NCBI RefSeq assembly: GCF_013342145.1
Contig: NZ_JABUQZ010000001.1
Coordinates: forward strand, 124,001-188,000
DNA length: 64,000 nt
Direction: 5' to 3'
Origin: Haloterrigena gelatinilytica
GTDB lineage: Archaea > Halobacteriota > Halobacteria > Halobacteriales > Natrialbaceae
The notes beneath the pieces are model-generated. The model was given only the letters and a program-made list of their open reading frames with translations, was not told the origin of the DNA and made no database searches. The position numbers and the translations under genes are program-made. Position 1 is the first letter of the stretch, and every line of letters begins with the position of its first letter. Of the stretch, positions 2,741 to 34,710 are shown one piece after another.

Positions 2741-2937
2741 GTGGCGTGCGCTGACGGCTGCCCGAGCGAAGCGAGGTGCGACTGGAGGGAGCACCTCGAA
2801 TGTGAACGGGGAACGAAGTGACCCGTGAGCGCCAGCGAGGGCAGCCGTCGATACTGCGCGAGGGATGAGTGAGCGAGCCTGCGAGCGAATGAATCGGCTG
2901 GGGAGGGTGTGGCGATTCCCTGCCGCCACGATAGCAG
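2741..2937 (+). repeat. Copy 1 of a dispersed structured repeat
   Basis: The copy opens with GTGGCGTGCGCTG, followed by an 11-bp perfect inverted repeat (2753-2763 GACGGCTGCCC with 2839-2849) that encloses a second hairpin (8-bp stem, 2772-2779 with 2791-2798). It then has the conserved block GCGAGGGATGAGTGAGCG, a GAGCGAAT..ATCGGCTGGGGAGGG block, and ends with CCACGATAGCAG. The same order of conserved blocks occurs at 10565, 53095 and, inverted, 53570. It begins 20 bases after the preceding gene. Function unknown; see the finding. Confidence 0.8.
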
Positions 2938-3121
2938 GCCGCTCCTCGTCGGTGTCCGCACGGTACCGCTTTGCCATTCCCTCCACGTTTGCGTAGCAGC
3001 TGCCGTTCGGTTGCAGACGAGATGGTCGCGTTCGATCCTCCGCGATCCGATTTTAGCGAGGTGCTGCCTCGAGTTCGTGATCCTTGAACAGGAATCGACG
3101 TTCGCGTTCGCCCCGAGACAC

Positions 3122-3141
3122 AGCGGGAGGTAGATTTGAAC
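3122..3141. repeat. Duplicated 3' end of the initiator tRNA gene (possible attachment-site remnant)
   Basis: The 20 bases agcgggaggtagatttgaac exactly repeat bases 3235-3254, which are the last bases of the tRNA-Met gene read on the opposite strand (T-arm and acceptor 3' half). The copy has no tRNA body. Such short direct repeats of tRNA 3' ends are what integrases leave at the far end of an inserted element. Here only 93 bases separate the two repeats, so any insert has been deleted or was never large. Confidence 0.6.
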
Positions 3142-3234
3142 CACGCCAGCACTCTCGCTTCGCTCGAGCGCTGTCTGGTTCAAACGACCACCGTGCTATG
3201 GATGGCGCTCACGAGTTTGTTCGCGCCAAAACAT

Positions 3235-18275: not shown

Positions 18276-18303
18276 TCCGGGAGAGAGAGGGTTGAACGAA
18301 GGC

Positions 18304-19974
18304 ATGGCAACGGACACCGAGGTCCTCGTTCTCGGAGGCGGGTCGACGGGCTGTGGCATCGCGCGGGATCTGGCGATGCGCGGCCTCGAGGTGACCCTCG
18401 TCGAGCGGGGCAATTTGACCGACGGCACGACCGGTCGTATGCACGGCCTGCTCCACAGCGGCGGCCGCTACGCCGTCTCCGATCGCGCCAGCGCGACGGA
18501 GTGTATCGAAGAAAACGAGATCCTCCGGGAGATCGCCGGCCACTGCGTCGAGGAGACCGGCGGCCTGTTCGTCCAGCGCCCCGAGGACTCGGACGACTAC
18601 TTTCAGGAGAAACTCGAGGGCTGTCGGGACTGCGGGATCCCCGCGCGCGTCCTCTCGGGGCGGGAGGCCCGCGAGGTCGAACCCTACCTCGCGGAAGACG
18701 TGAAACGGGCCATCGAGGTCCCCGACGGAGCGGTGGACCCGTTCCGGCTCTGCGTCGCGAACGCGATCGACGCCGAGACCCACGGCGCGCGCGTCGAGAC
18801 CCACGCAGAGGTGGTGGACCTCCTGCGCGACGGCGACGACGTCTACGGCGTCGAGGTGCGCCACGAGTCGGGGCCCGGTAAGCGGACGCACGCGGCGGCC
18901 GGCACGACCGAGGAGATCACCGCCGAGTACGTCGTCAACGCGACGGGCGCGTGGGCGGGGGAGATCGGCGCGATGGCCGACCTCGAGATCGAGGTGCGCC
19001 CCTCCAAGGGCGTCATGACGATCATGAACGTCCGGCAGGTCGACACCGTGATCAACCGCTGCCGGCCGAAAGGCGACGCCGACATCGTCGTCCCCCACGA
19101 GACGACGGCCATCCTCGGGACGACCGACGAGGAGGTCTCCGATCCGGACGACTTCCCCGAGGACCAGTGGGAGGTCGACCAGATGATTGACACCCTCTCG
19201 GAACTCGTTCCGATCCTCGAGGAGGCGCGGACGATCCGCTCCTTCTGGGGCGTGCGCCCGCTGTACGAGCCGCCGGGGACCGGCACGCAGGATCCGACGG
19301 ACATCACGCGGGACTTCTTCCTGCTCGACCACGCCGACCGCGACGGCGTCTCGGGCATCTCGAGCATCGTCGGCGGCAAGTTCACGACCTACCGCGCGAT
19401 GGCCGAGGAGATCTCCGACCACGTCTGCGAGAAACTGGGCGTGAACGCGTCCTGTGCCACCGCCGACGAACCGCTGCCCGGCAGCGAAGACATCGCAACG
19501 CTCGAGGCCGGCATGGACGATTTCGGTCTCCGATCGCCGGTCGCGCGCCGGAGCAAACAGCGCCTGGGGAGTCGGGCGAGCGAGGTCCTCGAGACCGACG
19601 AGGCCAACCCCGTGATCTGTCAGTGCGAGGGCGTCACGCGCGCGGAGGTCTGCGACGCGATCGACCAGTCGGGGACGGACCTGAACGCGGTCCGCATCCG
19701 CACGCGGGCCTCCATGGGCAACTGTCAGGGCGGCTTCTGCTGTCAGAACATGGCCAACGAACTCCACCCCGAGTACGACGAGGAGACGGTCCGCGCGGCG
19801 CTGGACGAACTCTTTCAGGAGCGCTGGAAGGGCGAGCGCCACGCGCTGTGGGGCGAACAGCTCTCGCAGGCCATGCTCAACTACGCCTTACACGCGACGA
19901 CGATGAATCGGGATCGGGATCCAGCGGGCGAGCCGACGACGATCGAGTTCGCCGACTTCGACGGAGGGGCCTGA
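18304..19974 (+). CDS. glpA: Anaerobic-type glycerol-3-phosphate dehydrogenase subunit A
   Basis: The protein has 556 residues from the ATG at 18304; a TTG twelve bases earlier is less likely. The N-terminus [20 protein letters not shown] is the FAD-binding Rossmann motif, followed by [13 protein letters not shown]. The C-terminal third has a BFD-like [2Fe-2S] cysteine set, [15 protein letters not shown] and GNCQGGFCC. GlpA oxidises glycerol 3-phosphate to dihydroxyacetone phosphate and passes electrons through GlpB/GlpC to the quinone pool. It is the first gene of the operon, and glpB starts one base after its stop. Confidence 0.96.
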
Positions 19975-19975
19975 G

Positions 19976-21304
19976 ATGGCCATCGAAGACGACGTCCTCG
20001 TGATCGGCGGCGGCCTGGCGGGCGCCACCGCGGCGCTCGCGGCCGCAGATGCCGCGCCCGACGTCCGCGTCCGACTGGTGACGTACAAACAGAGCACGCT
20101 CCGCCACGCCAGCGGGCTGATCGATATCCTCGGCTACGCGCCTGACTCGCCCGAGGAGGGCCCGCTCGTCGACCCCTTCGACGCGCTCTCCGACCTCCCC
20201 GAGGGTCACCCCTACGAGCGCGTCGGGAGCGATGCGGTCCGCGAGGCGCTGGCCTTCTTCGACGACGTCGCGGGCGACGCCTACGCGGGCGACCACACCG
20301 ACGCGAACGCGCTGGTCCCGACCCACGGCGGCACCGTCAAGCCGACCGCGCGCTATCCCGTCTCGACGGCCGACGGCCTGGCCAGCGACGACCGCGACGC
20401 GCTGCTGGTCGGCTTCGAGACCCTGCCGGACTTCGAGGCGCCGCTGGCCGCCGCCCACCTCGAGGCCGCGGGCGCGCCGTTCTCGGCCCGCGGCGCGACG
20501 ATTCCGTTCCCCGGTGTCGTTCGGGACGACGCCAAGGTGACCCGCTACGCTCACCTGCTGGATCAGGACGAGACCGTGACGACTGGCGCCGGCGAGACCG
20601 GCGCGCGCGAGGCGCTCGCGACGACGGTCGCCGAACGCCTCGGGGACGAATCCCGCGTCGGCTTCCCCGCCGTGCTCGGCGACGAGCACGCGGCCGAGGT
20701 CCGTGCCGACCTCGCGGCCGCGCTCGGCGCCGACGTCTTCGAGGTCCCCATGGGGCCGCCCAGTCTGCCCGGCATGCGACTCGAGGACCTGCTGTACGAC
20801 GCGCTCGAGGAGGCGGGCGTCCGCGTCACCTCGGGCGTGCCGGTGATCGATTACGAGACCGCCGAGGCGGACGCGGTAGCGGCCGACGGTGGCAGCGGCG
20901 GTGACCGCATCGAGCGCGTCGTCGTCGACCGCAACGGCACCGAGATCCCCTATCGCGCCGACCAGTACGTCCTCGCGACGGGCGGGCTGGTCGGCAAGGG
21001 CGTCCGTTCCGAACGCGAACGGGTGTTCGAGCCGATCTTCGACTGCCACGTCCCCCACGCCGCGGACCGCTACGACTGGTTCGTCGACGACGTCTTCGGC
21101 GACCAGCCCTACGCGCGGTTCGGCCTCGCGTCCGACCGCGAGTTGCGGCCGCTCGACGCCGATGACGAGCCGGAGTTTTCGAACCTGCGGGCCGCGGGCG
21201 CGGTGCTCGGCGGCTACGACTTCGCCGCCGAGAAGTCCGGCGCGGGCGTCTCGCTCGCGACGGGCTACGTCGCCGGGACGCGGGCCGGCGAGGAGGCTGA
21301 GTAG
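19976..21304 (+). CDS. glpB: Glycerol-3-phosphate dehydrogenase subunit B
   Basis: The 442-residue protein begins DDVLVIGGGLAGATAALAAA, an FAD-binding fold, and contains the GlpB-typical MGPPSLPGMRLEDLL near residue 258 and the C-terminal AAGAVLGGYDFAAEKSGAG block near residue 410. It is the linker flavoprotein of the GlpABC complex at the membrane. It is one base downstream of glpA. A 157-base spacer with a tandem repeat separates it from glpC, which is unusual for this otherwise tightly packed operon. Confidence 0.95.
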   Translation: MAIEDDVLVIGGGLAGATAALAAADAAPDVRVRLVTYKQSTLRHASGLIDILGYAPDSPEEGPLVDPFDALSDLPEGHPYERVGSDAVREALAFFDDVAGDAYAGDHTDANALVPTHGGTVKPTARYPVSTADGLASDDRDALLVGFETLPDFEAPLAAAHLEAAGAPFSARGATIPFPGVVRDDAKVTRYAHLLDQDETVTTGAGETGAREALATTVAERLGDESRVGFPAVLGDEHAAEVRADLAAALGADVFEVPMGPPSLPGMRLEDLLYDALEEAGVRVTSGVPVIDYETAEADAVAADGGSGGDRIERVVVDRNGTEIPYRADQYVLATGGLVGKGVRSERERVFEPIFDCHVPHAADRYDWFVDDVFGDQPYARFGLASDRELRPLDADDEPEFSNLRAAGAVLGGYDFAAEKSGAGVSLATGYVAGTRAGEEAE

Positions 21305-21306
21305 CA

Positions 21307-21465
21307 ATGGGCGACTCGAGCGAGAACCGACGACCGGCCGACTCGAGGACCGACGACCGACCGGCCGACTCGAGGACCGACGACCGACCGGCCGACTCGA
21401 GGACCGACGACCGACCGGCCGACTCGAGAGCGATCGAGACACGACGACCACGACTACACTCATGA
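21307..21465 (+). CDS. Possible 52-residue repeat peptide between glpB and glpC
   Basis: An ATG two bases after the glpB stop opens a 52-codon frame whose TGA overlaps the glpC ATG (ATGA), the same coupling used elsewhere in this window. Its body is built from a 9-residue repeat, RPADSRTDD, four times, encoded by a 27-base tandem repeat. The composition is charged and probably disordered. It could be a real translated spacer that couples glpB to glpC translation, or an accidental frame in a repeat expansion. The placement favours the first, but nothing proves expression. Confidence 0.4.
   Translation: MGDSSENRRPADSRTDDRPADSRTDDRPADSRTDDRPADSRAIETRRPRLHS
21331..21438 (+). repeat. 27-bp tandem repeat, four units
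   Basis: The core CGACCGGCCGACTCGAG recurs at 21331, 21358, 21385 and 21412, exactly 27 bases apart, with intervening AGGACCGACGAC-type sequence. The last unit is incomplete. The period is a multiple of three and keeps an open reading frame. The units are contiguous with no unique spacers, so this is not a CRISPR array. Confidence 0.9.
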
Positions 21466-22817
21466 GCGACGCAGAGCAACCGACCGACGATCACGTACCG
21501 GGAGCCGAAGAGGAGGAGTTCGAACCCATCCAGGTGTTCCCCGAGGCCGAAGAGATGGACCTCCGGCCGGGGGCGGACAACTGCTACAAGTGCTCGACCT
21601 GCGACACCAACTGTCCCGTCGCCGAGGTCGACGACGAGTTCCCCGGCCCGAAGTTCCAGGGCCCCGAGCAGTGGCGGCTCAAGCGCCAGGACGACCACGA
21701 CATCGACGACTCGGTGATGAAGTGTTCGAACTGCATGCGCTGTGACAGCGCCTGCCCCTCCGAGGTCCCCCTCTCGCAGATGCACAACACGGCCCGCGGT
21801 GAGTACGTCGAGGAGCAGATGGACACATTCTCTCGGGAGTATCTCCGCAATCGCATCCTCGCGAACTACCGGCGACTCGCGCCGCTGGCGGCGGCGTTCC
21901 CCCGCACGGCGAACTTCGTGATGGGGCTCTCGGTGACGAAGTGGATGGGCGAGAAGCTCCTGGGGATCACGAGCGAGCGGGACTTCCCCGAGTTCGCGAC
22001 CGAGACGTTCCGCGAGTGGTGGACGAAGCGCGGCGGTGCGAAGGTCGAAAACCCGGACAAGCGGATCGCCTACTTCCACGGCTGCTACTCGAACTACAAC
22101 ACGCCCGAGGTCGCGAAGGCGCTCGTCCGCGTCTACGAGCACTTCGGCTACGAGATCATGGTCCCCGACCAGTCCTGTTCGGGGACGCCGATGTTCGCCA
22201 ACGGCATGTTAGAGGACGCCCGGCGGGCCGCCGAGACCAACGTCCGCGAACTCGCCGCGGCGTTGGAGGACGGCGCCGATATCGTCGCCTCCTGTAGCTC
22301 CTGTTCGATGTCCCTCCGCCAGGAGTACCCCGAACTGTTCGATTTCGAGAACACCGAGTCGGTGGCCGAGAACACCTGGGACGCCGTCGAATACCTCCGG
22401 GTTCACGAGGATCTCGAGGGCGAACTCGAGGGGCGCTCGGTCGACGGTGACGAGTTCGACGACTTCGCCTATCACGCACCGTGTCATTCACGTAACCAGG
22501 GACTCGACGGACAGACGATCGAAGTGCTCAGCGTGATCGACGGCATCGAGGCCCACGACGTCGGCGACTCCTGCTCGGGGATCTCCGGCACCTACGGCTG
22601 GAAGGAGGAGAACTACGAGACGTCGATGAAGATCGGCGAGGAGATGTTCGAGCACATGGACGCGGCCGACGCCGAAACTGGGCTGACCGAGTGTCCGACC
22701 TGCTCGATGCAGATGGAACACGGCACCGGCTACGAGATCAAACACACGCTCGAGGTTCTCGAGGCGGCGCTGGTCGGGTCCGGCTCGGCTGCGAGCGGGC
22801 GCCGGGAGGCCGGGTAG
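21462..22817 (+). CDS. glpC: Glycerol-3-phosphate dehydrogenase subunit C (iron-sulfur)
   Basis: The protein has 451 residues from the ATG at 21462; the open frame continues upstream through the repeat but has no good start there. Two ferredoxin-type clusters are visible, CYKCSTCDTNCP near residue 42 and CSNCMRCDSACPSEVP near residue 89. Two CCG-type domains follow, with FHGCYSNYNTPE, CSGTPMF, ASCSSCSMSL and later HAPCHSRNQG, DSCSGISGTYG. GlpC anchors the complex and delivers electrons to quinone. The downstream ATPase gene starts directly at the next base. Confidence 0.95.
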   Translation: MSDAEQPTDDHVPGAEEEEFEPIQVFPEAEEMDLRPGADNCYKCSTCDTNCPVAEVDDEFPGPKFQGPEQWRLKRQDDHDIDDSVMKCSNCMRCDSACPSEVPLSQMHNTARGEYVEEQMDTFSREYLRNRILANYRRLAPLAAAFPRTANFVMGLSVTKWMGEKLLGITSERDFPEFATETFREWWTKRGGAKVENPDKRIAYFHGCYSNYNTPEVAKALVRVYEHFGYEIMVPDQSCSGTPMFANGMLEDARRAAETNVRELAAALEDGADIVASCSSCSMSLRQEYPELFDFENTESVAENTWDAVEYLRVHEDLEGELEGRSVDGDEFDDFAYHAPCHSRNQGLDGQTIEVLSVIDGIEAHDVGDSCSGISGTYGWKEENYETSMKIGEEMFEHMDAADAETGLTECPTCSMQMEHGTGYEIKHTLEVLEAALVGSGSAASGRREAG

Positions 22818-24125: not shown

Positions 24126-25052
24126 TCAGTACTCGAGGTCGTCGGTGTACCAGTCGACCAGCAACACGGCGCCGGCGCCGACGAACGCCATCGCGACGGC
24201 GATACCCGGCGTTCCGAGCGACGTCTCGCCGAGGTTGCTCAGGACGCGCTCGGCGGGCAGTCGCAACGCGCCCACCATCAGGCTCACCAGCGCGGCCAGC
24301 GTCGCGGCCCGATAGTGCTCGAGGGCGTAGCCGACCGCGTGAGCCATCGTGAACAGGCCGACGACCGCGCCGACGCCGAAGACGACGACGACCGTTCCGG
24401 TCTCGAGGACGGGCGCCAGCGCGCCGCCGTCGAGCAGGTCGAGGAGGGCGTCGATGAACCCGCTTAACGTTCCCGTCATGTACTCGTACTGGCCGAGGAT
24501 CAGGAGGAAGAACGCGCCCGACACGCCGGGGAGGATCATCGCACAGATCGCGACCGCGCCGGCGACGAGGATGATCGGCAGCCCGTGCGGGACGTTCCCC
24601 GCCGTCGTCCCCGAGACGACGAACGCGAGCGCGATCGCGCCGACCGAGATCGCCACGCGGCCGGCCGTCCACCGGTCGATCTCGCCGTAGAGGACGACCG
24701 CCGAGGCCGCGATCAGCCCGAAGAAGAAGCCGTACGTCGCCACCGGATACGTCGTCGCCGCCTCGTGCATGAGACTCGAGAGGAGCACGATCGCCGTCCC
24801 GACGCCGAGTCCCAGCGATAACAGAAACGGGATCTCCATTCGCTCGAGTTCCGTTCGGAGTCGCGCTCGAGCCTCGGGATCGTGCGGCCGCAGCGCCGGG
24901 CGAAAGGCCCGGGGATCGACGGCGGTGATCGCGCGGATCAGCCGGTCGTAGATGCCGACGATGAGCGCGATCGTCCCGCCCGAGACGCCGGGGACGACGT
25001 CGGCCGCGCCCATCGAGAACCCCTTGCAGTACACGGCGAGAAAGTCCCGCAT
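24126..25052 (-). CDS. DUF368 membrane protein (polyprenyl-phosphate translocase family)
   Basis: I prefer the ATG at 25052 (308 residues, MRDFLAVYCKGFSMGAADVV) over one 39 bases upstream, because a CGCTTTTCTCC box lies about 27 bases before it. MGAADVVPGVSGGTIALIVGIYDRLI is the hallmark of DUF368, and a second copy of the motif (GAVAICAMILPGVSGAFFLLILGQYEY) occurs near residue 185. About nine hydrophobic segments are visible. Bacterial DUF368 proteins were shown to return undecaprenyl phosphate across the membrane. The gene is convergent with the Orc-like gene and immediately downstream of aglB on the same strand, suggesting dolichyl-phosphate recycling for N-glycosylation. Confidence 0.88.
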   Translation of the reverse strand: MRDFLAVYCKGFSMGAADVVPGVSGGTIALIVGIYDRLIRAITAVDPRAFRPALRPHDPEARARLRTELERMEIPFLLSLGLGVGTAIVLLSSLMHEAATTYPVATYGFFFGLIAASAVVLYGEIDRWTAGRVAISVGAIALAFVVSGTTAGNVPHGLPIILVAGAVAICAMILPGVSGAFFLLILGQYEYMTGTLSGFIDALLDLLDGGALAPVLETGTVVVVFGVGAVVGLFTMAHAVGYALEHYRAATLAALVSLMVGALRLPAERVLSNLGETSLGTPGIAVAMAFVGAGAVLLVDWYTDDLEY

Positions 25053-25181
25053 TACCGGAGCTATTTCGGACGAGGAGAAAAGCGTTCTCACTTCCGGAGG
25101 TCGCTGTAGGAGGTCGGATTTTGCGACGCGAATTCCGGTCGAAAATCGACTGCGACGGCGGGGATCGGGTCGGGGTCGTCG

Positions 25182-28154
25182 TTAGTTGTCCTCGGTGTCG
25201 GCGCCGTCGTCGGTTTGGTTGCCGTCAGTCTGATTGCTGTCGTCGGTCTGGTTCCCGTCGGCAGTTTCGTTGCCGTCGTCGGTTTCGTTCCCGTCGGTCT
25301 CGTTGCCGTCCGACTCGTCGGGGTCCTCGAGTTCGGTCTGCTCGAAGCCGTCGACGGTGATGGTCTCGCCCGTGACCACTTCGGTCTCGGGAACCGCCGT
25401 CTCCGTTGCGTAGCCGGTTTCGCCCGGCTCGCCGACGGTCACCTCGTACTCGCCGGTCGCTTCGACGGAACTGTTCGTGTAGCCGTCCTCGACGCCGAGT
25501 TCGTCGTTGGTCGCGTAGGGGACGGTCAGTTCGAACGAGCCGTCCTCGGCGACCTCGGTCTCCTGCGTGTAGTTGAACGTCCGACCGGCGTTCGTCTCGA
25601 GTTCGACCTCGACGGTGGCCGTCGTCTCGTTTCCGAGCACGTCGGCGTCGTCGTCGACGGTGCCGGTGAGCGTCGCGCCCTCGACGCGCTCGAACGTCTT
25701 CACCGCGGCGGCGCTTCTGGCGCCGAGCAGCTGCTGGGTCGGGTTCTGCTGGACCTGCTGGATCTGCTGGAAGCCCATCTGCTGTATCGCCACCGACGGG
25801 CGACCCTCGCCGGGCGCCGCGAACTCGCCGTCCTGGTAGTAGATCACGTCGCCCTCCTGGTAGCCCAGTTCCTGCAGCTCCTGGGCGACCTGTCCCTGAA
25901 TGGCGCCGGGGACGAACACGTTCGCGTAAGTGACGATCGTCGCCGTCCCGGCGTCGGCGTTCTCGTGGACGGTCCGGTAGTGCTCGAGGCCGTCCGCGTC
26001 GTCGAAGTACAGCTTCGACTGCATCGTGTCGTAGTACGGGATGGTCCCGTTCTGGTAGTCGTTGATGTTCACCGGTTGTCCGTCCTCGTGGCCCTCGGGC
26101 GTCACGTAGTGTTCGTAGTTCGGCCCGGACCACGCGGTGATCGCGGAGAACTTCCCGGCCGCCATCTCGTAGTCGATCATCACGTACCGCAGCTCCTCGT
26201 TGGTGGCGCCCTCGGACAGCGACTCGAGTTCCTCGGTGGACTTGTCGGCCGGGTTCTCGCCGGCGGCGATGGTATCCAGCACCAGTTCGCCGCGTTCCTC
26301 GGACTCGGCGGTCAGGAACGACGAGGCGGACGGCGCGTTCTGCTGGAACGGGTTCGCGTGGGGGATCCGCTCTCCCTGCGTCGTTATCAGGTGGCCGTAG
26401 TCCCACCACGACATCACGCCGTAGGCCCCGTCCGGATAGTCGTAATCGCCGTCGGCGGGGGCGCCGTACGTTCCGAAGTACTCGAGTTGATCGGCGTTTT
26501 CGTGCTCGCCCCAGTTGCCCGGCGCGGGCGTGTTCTCGGCGAGCCACTCGTTCGATCCCTCCCAGACCATCGCGTCGCCGGACGGACCGGTGCTTTCGGC
26601 CTGTTCCCAGGAGGACGTGCCATCGGCGGCGATCGGCGGGAGCAGCGGCGCGAACAGCAGGATGACGACGAGGAAGAGCACGATCACCTGGTAGGTCTCG
26701 ATCCCTCGAATCGACTCGAGGCTCGCCGTGAGATCCAGATCGAAGAGACGAACGAACTCCGCGACGAACGCGGCGTTGACGACCGCGATCGCCAGCACCA
26801 GATAGTACATGAAGCGAACCTGCGTCGCGGCCATGCTGATCAGGAACAGCGCCCAGACGACGACGAGCGTGTGCTCGGCTCGGATTCTGCGACCGAACAG
26901 CGGCCGAATGACGACGAAGGCGAGACCGGCGAGCATGGTGTAGAACGCGCTTCCGAACTCGCTGAAGACGCTATCGAAGAAGTCCTCCGGGGGCTGAGCC
27001 TCGGAAATCGTGAGATCGGTGGCCGTTCCGCCGAACGGGAGCATGCGCCGCGTCGCGTTCCCGACGATCGAATCGAATATACTGGGGAGGAGGAGCCACA
27101 TCGCCAGCAGCGCCGCGGCGATGAGACCGCCGATGGCGACGGGGTAGTACCGTCGCTCGATGTCGCGATCGTTCCACTGGCGGGCGAGCCAGGCCATGAA
27201 GACACAGCCGACGGCCACGAGGAAGGCAGCGAGGGGCTGGAGCAGTCCGAAGCTCGTCGAACTCGTGCTACCGGGGTTTTCCATCAGGAGGAGCGTCAGG
27301 ATCGTGGTCACGCCGAGGCTCACCGCGCCGACGAAGGCGACGTGGTCCGGCGAGATCCCGCGGAGGTAGTCCAGACAGAGCTGCACGGCGAAGAACACGC
27401 CGAAGATACCGACCAGAAGGACCGCGGAGGGCCAGACCCAGATGTATAGGGTGAGCGCGACCCCTGCGAGAACGCTGTAGATGGTCGACGTTCGCAGCGC
27501 GTCCCAGTCCCTGTCGACGACAAGTTCGTAGATCGGCTGGTCGCGTTCGGCGACGGTCAGCGCGACCATCATCGTGACGACGGAAATCGCCATGAACAGC
27601 ACCTCGCCGATGTGGTGGTCGAGCTGGCCGACCGTCGATCGCGTCAGGAACTGTCCCTTCGCGAGTGCGAGCACGAGGACGGAGACGATGCCCCCGAGCG
27701 TGCCGCCGAGGCGCCGACCCGCGTAAAAGACCGGGATCGCCACGAGCGCGGCCATCGCCGGGATCATCAAGAGCGCGACGGTGTAGACGGTCTCCGGCGA
27801 CGGATCGCCGAGCCCGACGATCATCGCGACCGTGACAATTAGCTGGTCGAACAGCGTCCCGAACTGACCGACGTAGTTCCCTTCCGGAAACCCGGTCCAT
27901 ACCTCGTAGGGCATCGTGTTCGGGTAGTTCTCCGCCGTCCATTCGATCGTCCGCCACTGATACCACGAGTCGACCCCCGCCAGTGCGGGCGAGCCGTCTT
28001 CGGTGACAAATTGGTCGTACGCCTGGGTCCGCACCCAGAACATAAACAGCATCACAGCCCCGATTAGGGGGATGTGATACCAGTCAGACCACGTCTCGAG
28101 GAGAGAGGGTGACGTCTCAGACTCCTCCTCGACGTGTTCGGTATCCGTACTCAT
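25182..28154 (-). CDS. aglB: Dolichyl-phosphooligosaccharide-protein glycotransferase AglB
   Basis: This 990-residue protein is the archaeal STT3 oligosaccharyltransferase. About 13 hydrophobic segments fill residues 25-520. The first external loop has the catalytic Asp in AGVDSWYQWRTIE, and the extracellular domain contains WWDYGH near residue 583, the acceptor-binding motif. It transfers lipid-linked glycans to Asn in N-X-S/T sequons of S-layer and other surface proteins. The C-terminal ~45 residues are Asp/Asn/Thr-rich and contain six sequons (three NET, three NQT), an odd self-acceptor-like tail. It is divergent from a glycosyltransferase at 28359. Confidence 0.97.
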   Translation of the reverse strand: MSTDTEHVEEESETSPSLLETWSDWYHIPLIGAVMLFMFWVRTQAYDQFVTEDGSPALAGVDSWYQWRTIEWTAENYPNTMPYEVWTGFPEGNYVGQFGTLFDQLIVTVAMIVGLGDPSPETVYTVALLMIPAMAALVAIPVFYAGRRLGGTLGGIVSVLVLALAKGQFLTRSTVGQLDHHIGEVLFMAISVVTMMVALTVAERDQPIYELVVDRDWDALRTSTIYSVLAGVALTLYIWVWPSAVLLVGIFGVFFAVQLCLDYLRGISPDHVAFVGAVSLGVTTILTLLLMENPGSTSSTSFGLLQPLAAFLVAVGCVFMAWLARQWNDRDIERRYYPVAIGGLIAAALLAMWLLLPSIFDSIVGNATRRMLPFGGTATDLTISEAQPPEDFFDSVFSEFGSAFYTMLAGLAFVVIRPLFGRRIRAEHTLVVVWALFLISMAATQVRFMYYLVLAIAVVNAAFVAEFVRLFDLDLTASLESIRGIETYQVIVLFLVVILLFAPLLPPIAADGTSSWEQAESTGPSGDAMVWEGSNEWLAENTPAPGNWGEHENADQLEYFGTYGAPADGDYDYPDGAYGVMSWWDYGHLITTQGERIPHANPFQQNAPSASSFLTAESEERGELVLDTIAAGENPADKSTEELESLSEGATNEELRYVMIDYEMAAGKFSAITAWSGPNYEHYVTPEGHEDGQPVNINDYQNGTIPYYDTMQSKLYFDDADGLEHYRTVHENADAGTATIVTYANVFVPGAIQGQVAQELQELGYQEGDVIYYQDGEFAAPGEGRPSVAIQQMGFQQIQQVQQNPTQQLLGARSAAAVKTFERVEGATLTGTVDDDADVLGNETTATVEVELETNAGRTFNYTQETEVAEDGSFELTVPYATNDELGVEDGYTNSSVEATGEYEVTVGEPGETGYATETAVPETEVVTGETITVDGFEQTELEDPDESDGNETDGNETDDGNETADGNQTDDSNQTDGNQTDDGADTEDN

Positions 28155-28358
28155 TAGGATGCACCAGACACAAGTGGAGAATAAGCCTTGTCATCTACCG
28201 GCCGCCGTTTGATATCCGGGCTCCCTAATACCTACAACGCCGGTAGTTTTCTCCCCGACTGATTATCGATACGCGATGGACGTTCGACGCTCGAGGACTG
28301 ATTATCCGAGGTGTCCGAAGGAAAAGGCTTATTCTGCGTTCATTGCAATCGAGTCTCG

Positions 28359-29327
28359 ATGAAGGTCTCCGTCGTCATCTGTACCTACGCGATGGACCGC
28401 TACGACGTCTTCTCCGAGTGCGTCGACAGCGTCCTCTCACAAACCTACGCCTCGCTCGAAGTTGTCATCCTCGTCGACGGGAACGAACCGGTCTTCGAAC
28501 GCGTCCAGAACGATTACGGAGCCCTCGAGAACGTCGTCTTGCACTGCAACGACGAGAATCAGGGGATTTCGTACAGTCGGACTCGAGGCGCCGAGATCGC
28601 CACCGGTGACGTCGTCGCGTTTATCGATGACGATGCAGTGGCTGAGCCGGACTGGGTTGCTGAGTTGGCTCGCGTCTACGAGGAGACCGACGCCCTCGCC
28701 GTCGGCGGCCACGTCGCCCCCGACTGGGTGACCGAGAAACCTGACTTCTTCCCGGCAGAGTTCTACTGGTTAGTGGGTTGTGACGAGCGCGGCATGGGCG
28801 AGCACATGGAGGAACTGCGGAACACGTACGGCTCGAATATCTCGTTTCGCCGTGAGGTGTTCTTGAACGTCGGCGGCTACGACGAGAACACGGGCCGCCA
28901 CGGCGATCGGCACATCCAGGCTCACGAGGCGCCGGTTTGTATCCGGATTTCGAATAAGTACGGGCGGGGCGTGATCTACAATACTGATGCGGTAGTCCAT
29001 CACAAACTGTTCGACTATCGTGGGGACTTTCGCTGGTTGGTGTTCCGATCGTTCTGGCAGGGCTACTCGAAGCGGATCATGGATTTGCTGTTACCTGAGG
29101 CGAAAGGCGACAAGAGCGAATATCTGCAACAACTCATGTTCGGGTTTGTCCTATTGCGACTGAAATGCCTCGTGGCCGACCCTTCGGTCCCGAAGGTAAA
29201 ACAACTCGTGACGATCTTCGTGTTTACCGCTGCTGTCGGCTTCGGCTATCTATACGGATTAATTGATGTTGATCGGTCATGGCTGACCGTCGGTCAGGAT
29301 ATTGCTGCCGGTGACCAGAAATCTTGA
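28359..29327 (+). CDS. Family 2 glycosyltransferase, AglG/AglI-like
   Basis: The protein has 322 residues from the ATG at 28359. The GAAAAGGCTTATTC element about 28 bases upstream supports this leaderless start rather than an upstream frame extension. The GT-A motifs are VSVVICTYAMDRYDVFSECV at the N-terminus and FIDDDA (Asp90-Asp92) as metal-binding DXD. VHHKLFDYRGDFRWLVFRSFWQGYSKR near residue 210 matches the C-terminal region of haloarchaeal AglG/AglI enzymes that extend glucosyl-dolichyl phosphate with uronic acids. A hydrophobic segment near residues 285-305 could anchor it to the membrane. Its place next to aglB supports a role in the N-glycan, while sugar specificity is inferred. Confidence 0.87.
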   Translation: MKVSVVICTYAMDRYDVFSECVDSVLSQTYASLEVVILVDGNEPVFERVQNDYGALENVVLHCNDENQGISYSRTRGAEIATGDVVAFIDDDAVAEPDWVAELARVYEETDALAVGGHVAPDWVTEKPDFFPAEFYWLVGCDERGMGEHMEELRNTYGSNISFRREVFLNVGGYDENTGRHGDRHIQAHEAPVCIRISNKYGRGVIYNTDAVVHHKLFDYRGDFRWLVFRSFWQGYSKRIMDLLLPEAKGDKSEYLQQLMFGFVLLRLKCLVADPSVPKVKQLVTIFVFTAAVGFGYLYGLIDVDRSWLTVGQDIAAGDQKS

Positions 29328-32706: not shown

Positions 32707-33174
32707 GTTCGAGTGGAGGGTATTTGACTGAGAACTACCTGTTGCGAGTGCGAGGAAGAAAGTGAACGAACACCAACTGTGGGAGTCCGCCGGTCTCAGG
32801 ATCATGTATCTCGGCTCATCGTGGAACTTTTTTATAAGGGACTGGAAGCTAGATTAGAACACATTCTGAAAACGGGTGATACAACTCTGTCCGCTGTGGG
32901 TCAGAGACGACGAGATGACCCGAGAAGAACTTTCGTGGAAGTATATCGCAGAAGATATCATTTCTCTCCACTCTGGTTAGCACTGTGGTGGAAAACTGGA
33001 TGGGTAACGTTGATCGTTCCCTTCTACGTCCCCCAATTATGACTACTGCCGGACTCTCCCGAGATACAGGATGTGACTCATGCCCACACGTTATCCTCCT
33101 TGTTTCGTTTGCTGCCCTGCAAACGAACAGGCTCATCAATAGGAAACGTATACCGGGAGACAGCCACAGCTGCA
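32707..33174. other. AT-rich intergenic stretch, no gene recognised
   Basis: The 468 bases hold an 87-codon plus-strand frame (32779-33042) and a 112-codon minus-strand frame, neither with recognisable motifs. The right end probably contains the promoter of the flippase gene. Nothing resembling a tRNA or a transposase is visible. Confidence 0.5.
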
Positions 33175-34710
33175 ATGTCTGACTCAACTGAAACCACTGG
33201 GCCGTCTTCTACGACTTTCGCCTCAATTCGAATGCTATTCAAGAGCGGGGCTATCGTCCTTTTCGCAACCTATTTCGATTATGCCATCTCGTTTATAGGA
33301 AAAATTTTAATAGCCGATCATCTCGGAAAAGTCGATTACGGGTTTGTCTCTGTCGGGATCGTGCTCGTCAGTACGGTCAATACGGTAGCTCTGCTAGGCC
33401 TGTCAAACGGGGTCTCACGTTATCTCCCTCGATACTCGGACAAAGAAATGCACGAGCGCATCATCTCGAGTGGATTTTTCCTTATCATTACTTCCTCACT
33501 CACGATCAGCGCTCTTTTGTTCATGTTTTCAGAACCCATCGCAATTCAAATTATCCAGAACAGGGACGCTACACTGGTCATCCGTGTGTTTACTGTCATA
33601 GCCCCGTTTGCAGTAGTACGCTCGTACTTCTACGGGACGGTACAAGGACTCGAAAAGACTGTTCCAAAGGTCATCGTCGAGAACGTTCTTGACCCGGTTC
33701 TCAGGATAACACTTATCGGTGGTGCCGTTGCATTTTCGCTTAATCAAATCGGCGGCATTGCTGCGTACTCAATTCCGTACGTCGTCACTGGTATTCTTGG
33801 ACTTTGGTACCTCGTTCGACGGACGCCCCTCTCGTTGAAGTTGCCTACCAAAGGTGTCAGTGGTAGAGGTGGAATGTACCGAGAACTTCTCACGTTCTCC
33901 GTCCCCTTAGCAGTGAGTGGCGCAATGTCTATGGTTCTCTCGGACATCGATACGTACTTCTTGACGTTCTACTCAAATGTAGGTAGTGTTGGTGTTTACC
34001 ACGTAATCTATCCGATTGCGACTATCCTGACCTCGTTCCTAGAGGCGTTCGCTTTCTTGACAATTCCACTTATCTCCCGCCACCATTCGAAAGACGATTT
34101 TCGGGGGATGCGTCACCTTTATAAGACTGTTGTAAAGTGGACAGTCGCACTTTCCCTGCCCACTTTCCTTGTATTCGTCCTTGAACCGTCAACGGTTATT
34201 TCGTCGACTTTCGGTGCAGAGTATGCAGAGGGTGGAACCGCATTAGCAGTGCTTTCTGTCGGGTTTTTCATTCATGGATTTGCTGGCCCGAGTCTGGCGG
34301 CTCTCACGTCGATGGGTCATAATCGACTGGTTATGTACGACACTATCATAGTTGCCGCGGTAAACGTGGTCTTGAATTTTTTCCTCGTACCAAAGTATGG
34401 ACTGCTAGGCGCTGCCGTCGCCACGATGTTGTCCTATTTCGTATCGAACGCCCTTGGAGTCGTCCAGCTCTACAAATTCGCCGATATCCAACCGTTTTCT
34501 CGCGAAGCGATCGTCCTTCCAGTGCTAGCGATTGGGTTTTTCGTCGGTACTCAGAAATTCATACTCGGAGACGGAACAAGTCTTCAGTGGATCTTCTCGT
34601 GGGCAGTAGTGTCCTCAGTCGGGTACGGACTGGTGGCCCTATACATAGTGTACGGCGAAGAAGAGAGAGAGATCCTCCGTGCAACTGTCGAACGTATCCT
34701 TAGAAAGTAG
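33175..34710 (+). CDS. Oligosaccharide flippase family protein (Wzx-like)
   Basis: The 511-residue protein starts at MSDSTETTGPSSTTFASIRM; the longer upstream frame adds a segment without family similarity. About 14 hydrophobic segments are visible. The N-terminal block IVLFATYFDYAISFIGKILI and ADHLGKVDYGFVSVGIVLVS, with L-G-x-x-x-Y/F-G, is typical of the RfbX/Wzx family, and FGAEYAEGGTALAVLSVGFF near residue 345 matches the conserved FG-x-E-Y motif. It presumably exports the lipid-linked glycan built by the neighbouring transferases. It is a second flippase in the window, clearly divergent from that at 6108. Confidence 0.9.
   Translation: MSDSTETTGPSSTTFASIRMLFKSGAIVLFATYFDYAISFIGKILIADHLGKVDYGFVSVGIVLVSTVNTVALLGLSNGVSRYLPRYSDKEMHERIISSGFFLIITSSLTISALLFMFSEPIAIQIIQNRDATLVIRVFTVIAPFAVVRSYFYGTVQGLEKTVPKVIVENVLDPVLRITLIGGAVAFSLNQIGGIAAYSIPYVVTGILGLWYLVRRTPLSLKLPTKGVSGRGGMYRELLTFSVPLAVSGAMSMVLSDIDTYFLTFYSNVGSVGVYHVIYPIATILTSFLEAFAFLTIPLISRHHSKDDFRGMRHLYKTVVKWTVALSLPTFLVFVLEPSTVISSTFGAEYAEGGTALAVLSVGFFIHGFAGPSLAALTSMGHNRLVMYDTIIVAAVNVVLNFFLVPKYGLLGAAVATMLSYFVSNALGVVQLYKFADIQPFSREAIVLPVLAIGFFVGTQKFILGDGTSLQWIFSWAVVSSVGYGLVALYIVYGEEEREILRATVERILRK

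Follow-up and report, generated by a model that had tools for sequence, protein, structure and literature searches.

An aglB-linked DUF368 gene of Haloterrigena gelatinilytica as a candidate for dolichyl phosphate return in haloarchaeal N-glycosylation

The gene pair and the DUF368 protein

The window, the whole stretch of 64,000 nucleotides from Haloterrigena gelatinilytica, carries a gene for the oligosaccharyltransferase AglB and, 3' of it on the shared minus strand and separated by 90 bp, a gene for a DUF368 protein (Table 1). A sequence-only reading of this DNA had placed a DUF368 gene directly behind aglB at 24126-28154, and both genes were indeed present there on the minus strand. The DUF368 gene starts with GTG; translation could alternatively begin at an ATG at residue 14. 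Inspection of the gap by eye revealed no obvious TATA-like promoter element. The DUF368 protein matched PF04018 with an E-value of 3.1e-66 over profile positions 1-226 of 246, and its score of 223.9 bits against a cut-off of 26 places it in this family. PF04018 was its only Pfam match; the VTT domain of DedA proteins (PF09335) was not found. AglB was recognized by STT3 (PF02516, E 2e-20), the core domain with the WWDYG motif (PF22627, E 4.8e-17) and AglB_L1, the long-type peripheral domain (PF18079, E 2.6e-19). The closest named relative of the DUF368 protein was that of Haloterrigena salina with 96 % identity, and there too aglB is located 5' of the gene. A second DUF368 gene is present in the same genome, about 3.55 Mb from the aglB-linked copy; its identified neighbours are a MutS-like and a nitroreductase-like gene, neither of them a glycosylation gene.

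Table 1 Features of the aglB–DUF368 locus, in coordinates of the window
Feature	Position	Strand	Size or residues	Basis
DUF368 / PopT-family polyprenyl-phosphate translocase gene (predicted)	24126..25091	-	321 aa	PF04018
DUF368 repeat motif, copy 2, AICAMILPGVSGAFFLLILGQYEYM	24477..24551	-	residues 181-205	alignment of 84 sequences
DUF368 repeat motif, copy 1, MGAADVVPGVSGGTIALIVGIYDR	24942..25013	-	residues 27-50	invariant residues in 84 sequences
Gap between aglB and DUF368 gene	25092..25181	-	90 bp	
aglB, oligosaccharyltransferase gene	25182..28154	-	990 aa	STT3, AglB_L1 and AglB core domains
WWDYG motif of AglB	26394..26408	-	residues 583-587	
Divergent glycosyltransferase family 2 gene	28311..29327	+		PF00535, E 3.2e-22

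An alignment of 84 archaeal DUF368 homologues contained 21 invariant residues. They include M27, G28, P34, G35, S37, G38, T40, A42, G46 and Y48 in the first copy of an internal repeat and P188, G189, S191 and G192 in the second copy, where Q201 and Y202 were almost invariant. The two copies are identical in 10 of 29 residues at an offset of 154. The AlphaFold model was all-helical with a pLDDT of 93.2. We describe the family, in terms of our own drawn from the DUF368 alignment, as a helical membrane fold with two PGxSG motifs, and the protein of the window has both. A fold search with the model against the PDB and viral models yielded nothing significant, and a sequence search retrieved no relative with a solved structure.

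Several observations concern the surroundings of the pair. The divergent family-2 glycosyltransferase may be an N-glycan enzyme. Between 29000 and 45000 the G+C content is 48-53 %, against 60-68 % in the flanks; the genes checked in this region code for glycosyltransferases and a polysaccharide-flippase-family protein (33073-34710), and the region resembles a variable island of surface-glycan genes next to aglB. Judged from translations, a glpABC-like glycerol-3-phosphate dehydrogenase set is located at 18292-22817, and glpABC-like clusters recur downstream of aglB–DUF368 in several genera.

Distribution and history of the linkage

Among 194 genomes of the class Halobacteria, Pfam searches detected DUF368 in 192 and STT3 in 190. 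DUF368 was located within 5 kb downstream of STT3 in 130 of the 189 genomes with both matches, in all 130 on the same strand. This first count was too low, as the STT3 profile missed clear AglB genes next to or near DUF368 in three genomes (G043, G069, G165). With these added, same-strand linkage with DUF368 no more than about 5 kb behind aglB is present in 133 of 192 genomes, which cover 46 of 64 genera and nine families. Surveys based on PF02516 therefore undercount AglB. Random placement would give a same-strand meeting within 5 kb with a frequency of about 0.0014 per genome versus the 133/192 observed, although the linked genomes are related and do not represent 133 independent events; the variation of all other neighbours served as control. 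A chance or merely local adjacency was ruled out by the class-wide survey. In one genome (G162), aglB and DUF368 occupy two contig ends, the pair being probably split by the assembly.

For the comparison of neighbourhoods, one genome per genus was taken, giving 46 loci of 20 kb in which genes were called by a simple script that may have overlooked small genes. DUF368 was the very next gene after aglB in 43 of these genera, while in the other three an aglM-like UDP-glucose dehydrogenase gene lay between them. No other position was equally constant. The runner-up, a family-2 glycosyltransferase encoded divergently upstream of aglB, belonged to the same cluster in 17 genera, and after DUF368 no single cluster occurred in more than six. 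Thus aglB and DUF368 are a conserved unit amid shuffled neighbours. Same-stranded, adjacent and conserved across genera, the pair looks like an operon with one shared transcript, since the genes overlap or are at most 6 nt apart in 25 of 46 genera (gap of -4 to 6 nt, compared with 90 nt in the window). An inherited gene order devoid of functional meaning could be invoked, as all linked copies are traceable to one ancestral arrangement. However, other neighbours were reshuffled in the same loci, reaching 17/46 at best against 43/46 for the pair, and the pair stayed together across nine families. Inherited synteny alone was therefore judged insufficient, and we hold this explanation to be very improbable.

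The genus coded g35 in our survey is Haloferax, because its locus L195 is 93 % identical on the DNA level to the named H. profundi locus L187. In Haloferax, DUF368 follows aglB directly at three loci (L077, L199, L200), and at four others (L195-L198) the order is aglB, the aglM-like gene, then DUF368. The Haloferax copy L187 was placed among the linked DUF368 copies in the tree. The agl cluster of H. volcanii has been described as running from aglJ to aglM (PMC5867893), thus the DUF368 gene of this species may be situated just past the studied edge of the cluster.

In maximum-likelihood trees, haloarchaeal DUF368 proteins formed one clade separate from the rest of the phylum (support 100/100). 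The linked state is most simply seen as ancestral in haloarchaea, because aglB-linked copies were found in early branches of the haloarchaeal tree. A search for DUF368 in other aglB neighbourhoods had been proposed as a check in the sequence-only reading; its outcome is a linkage that is strong, class-wide and apparently ancestral within the haloarchaea.

In about 30 % of the haloarchaeal genomes, DUF368 is located away from aglB. Eighteen of 22 unlinked rows formed one later clade (support 99/96), which comprises genomes of family f3 and a long-branched subclade of second-locus copies from Natrialbaceae. This distribution looks like a transfer between families. Within the Natrialbaceae, nine genomes had both types, 12 the aglB type alone, 29 the unlinked type alone and none neither (Fisher p 2e-6, raw, with genomes treated as unrelated), the type being assigned from the tree where a genome represented its genus and from the Pfam score otherwise. 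Where only the unlinked type was present, aglB often kept its usual flanks with DUF368 gone from between. Directly behind aglB at locus L148 (genome G116), a decayed DUF368 fragment was found (about 2870-3228, minus strand). Over 78 residues, for instance, it matches the linked DUF368 of L093 with 51 % identity; the intact DUF368 of this genome is of the unlinked type. This suggests that the unlinked copy may have replaced the linked copy in Natrialbaceae and that both may therefore overlap in function. At four Natrialbaceae loci (L118, L126, L127, L132), the unlinked DUF368 gene adjoins genes for a family-2 glycosyltransferase and a methyltransferase in conserved order.

Outside the haloarchaea, about 204 genomes of the phylum were sampled. 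DUF368 was detected in 34 of them, all with STT3, and in none was it adjacent to STT3; in four genomes of family f29 the two genes lie within about 12-15 kb of each other. The pairing as a general archaeal rule was thus ruled out. The controls Methanocaldococcus jannaschii, Sulfolobus acidocaldarius and Methanosarcina acetivorans possess STT3 and DedA, and lack DUF368. Hence carrier return in these three organisms must use something else.

A proposed return step for dolichyl phosphate

Bacterial DUF368 proteins are candidate C55-P translocases: surface C55-P rises in mutants at alkaline pH, and DUF368 expression confers amphomycin resistance (PMC9876793). That DUF368 proteins recycle undecaprenyl phosphate in bacteria, as the sequence-only reading had stated, agrees with this published role as polyprenyl-phosphate translocases. 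In haloarchaea, dolichyl phosphate (Dol-P) is the carrier on which N-glycans are assembled, and AglB transfers them (PMC3871713, PMC11980604), so AglB should leave Dol-P outside. We consider it likely that the gene in the window is a haloarchaeal popT, coding for a Dol-P return transporter that is probably produced together with AglB. AglB would pass the glycan to asparagine and leave dolichyl phosphate in the outer leaflet, the DUF368 protein would move the freed lipid back to the cytoplasmic leaflet, and glycosyltransferases would reload it there. AglB and DUF368 probably originate from one operon, so that their levels would rise and fall together. The grounds from this analysis are family membership, conserved adjacency, ancestral age and the presence of an unlinked member where the linked copy is gone. 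Dol-P as substrate, the inward direction, co-transcription and a dependence of N-glycosylation on the gene we infer. In an extended version, AglB and PopT would constitute a physical or regulatory unit, freed dolichyl phosphate would go from the oligosaccharyltransferase directly to a transporter reserved for its re-entry, and the linked and unlinked clades would be specialised in N-glycosylation and general glycan synthesis, respectively. An N-glycosylation pathway would then have a carrier-return step of its own. This version is speculative and appears rather doubtful to us.

The coupling of aglB and DUF368 is strong but not obligatory, because a near-complete haloarchaeal genome (G118) has an unlinked-type DUF368 without a detectable AglB, and a small haloarchaeal genome (G021, locus L203) has AglB and two DedA matches without DUF368. 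G118 offers a natural test of the DUF368 role without AglB. DUF368 may also be a general polyprenyl-phosphate recycler for all users of Dol-P, namely N-glycosylation, exopolysaccharide, Dol-P-mannose and a second N-glycan pathway. It would then have no special tie to AglB and be located behind aglB only because aglB is a widely kept glycan gene. Unlinked copies serving about 30 % of the genomes, the retention of DUF368 in G118 and the action of bacterial DUF368 on a common carrier pool (PMC9876793) are in line with such a general role, but it leaves unexplained why aglB–DUF368 alone stays constant in an otherwise changing neighbourhood and why gaps permitting translational coupling are common. 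This is a broad form of the Dol-P-return explanation and overlaps with it, so that the standing of the one does not exclude the other; we regard it as a serious possibility that falls somewhat short of probable.

DedA proteins were encoded in all 194 Halobacteria genomes, usually in 2-5 copies, thus DUF368 was ruled out as the sole recycling candidate. None of the 150 DedA places listed was within 5 kb of STT3. DedA might perform the main Dol-P return, with DUF368 as a conditional helper, e.g., at high pH or high sodium. The universal presence of DedA in the class and the overlapping, conditional roles of both families in bacteria (PMC9876793) would fit. The tie to aglB, however, belongs to DUF368 and not to DedA, DUF368 itself is present in 192/194 genomes, and for many DedA proteins the substrate may be another lipid, as only the COG0586 subfamily has been assigned to UndP (PMC10127716). 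We consider a main role of DedA unlikely. The proposal of DUF368 as a candidate for archaeal carrier recycling in the sequence-only reading thus gained from the haloarchaeal linkage and a complementation by a Haloferax homologue (see below), but it does not extend to archaea in general and shares the field with DedA.

The DUF368 family was already known. As for its operon link to N-glycosylation, the literature searched, which covered few subscription journals, contained no paper that treats DUF368 together with AglB or N-glycosylation. The class-wide pair makes a step of archaeal N-glycosylation directly testable: tractable haloarchaea offer one gene for deletion, and effects of its family on polyprenyl phosphates have already been shown. 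In several Haloferax genomes, DUF368 lies just beyond the aglM-like gene by aglB, which probably places it at the border of the well-studied agl cluster.

Comparison with known carrier-lipid transporters

The forward flippases assigned in haloarchaea are AglR, Agl15 and Agl29 (PMC3871713, PMC11980604). They share with the proposed role of DUF368 the movement of lipid carriers in N-glycosylation; however, they are assigned to the outward step with the loaded carrier, whereas DUF368 would act inward on the empty carrier. No mention of carrier recycling was found in either of these two papers. The linkage to AglB would be compatible with either direction, and DUF368 could instead flip loaded Dol-P-glycan outward. 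Such a function is hardly to be expected, since other proteins have been assigned to it (PMC3871713, PMC11980604), the window contains the polysaccharide-flippase-family gene described above, and bacterial DUF368 mutants accumulate C55-P on the surface (PMC9876793).

For the inward transport of the empty carrier, DedA/UptA proteins (PF09335) have the same proposed task in bacteria as DUF368, but they constitute a distinct sequence family and, unlike DUF368, are without linkage to aglB. VCA0040 of Vibrio cholerae and SAOUHSC_00846 of Staphylococcus aureus share the Pfam family with the DUF368 protein of the window over a nearly full profile. Within the haloarchaea, HVO_RS12060 of Haloferax volcanii belongs to the same DUF368 family as the gene in the window and partly complements a V. 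cholerae Δvca0040 mutant (PMC9876793); the main text of that paper contains no mention of its position relative to aglB. In comparison with bacterial PopT, the putative lipid of the window protein is dolichyl phosphate instead of undecaprenyl phosphate, and its gene, unlike those of the bacterial DUF368 proteins, is paired with an oligosaccharyltransferase gene.
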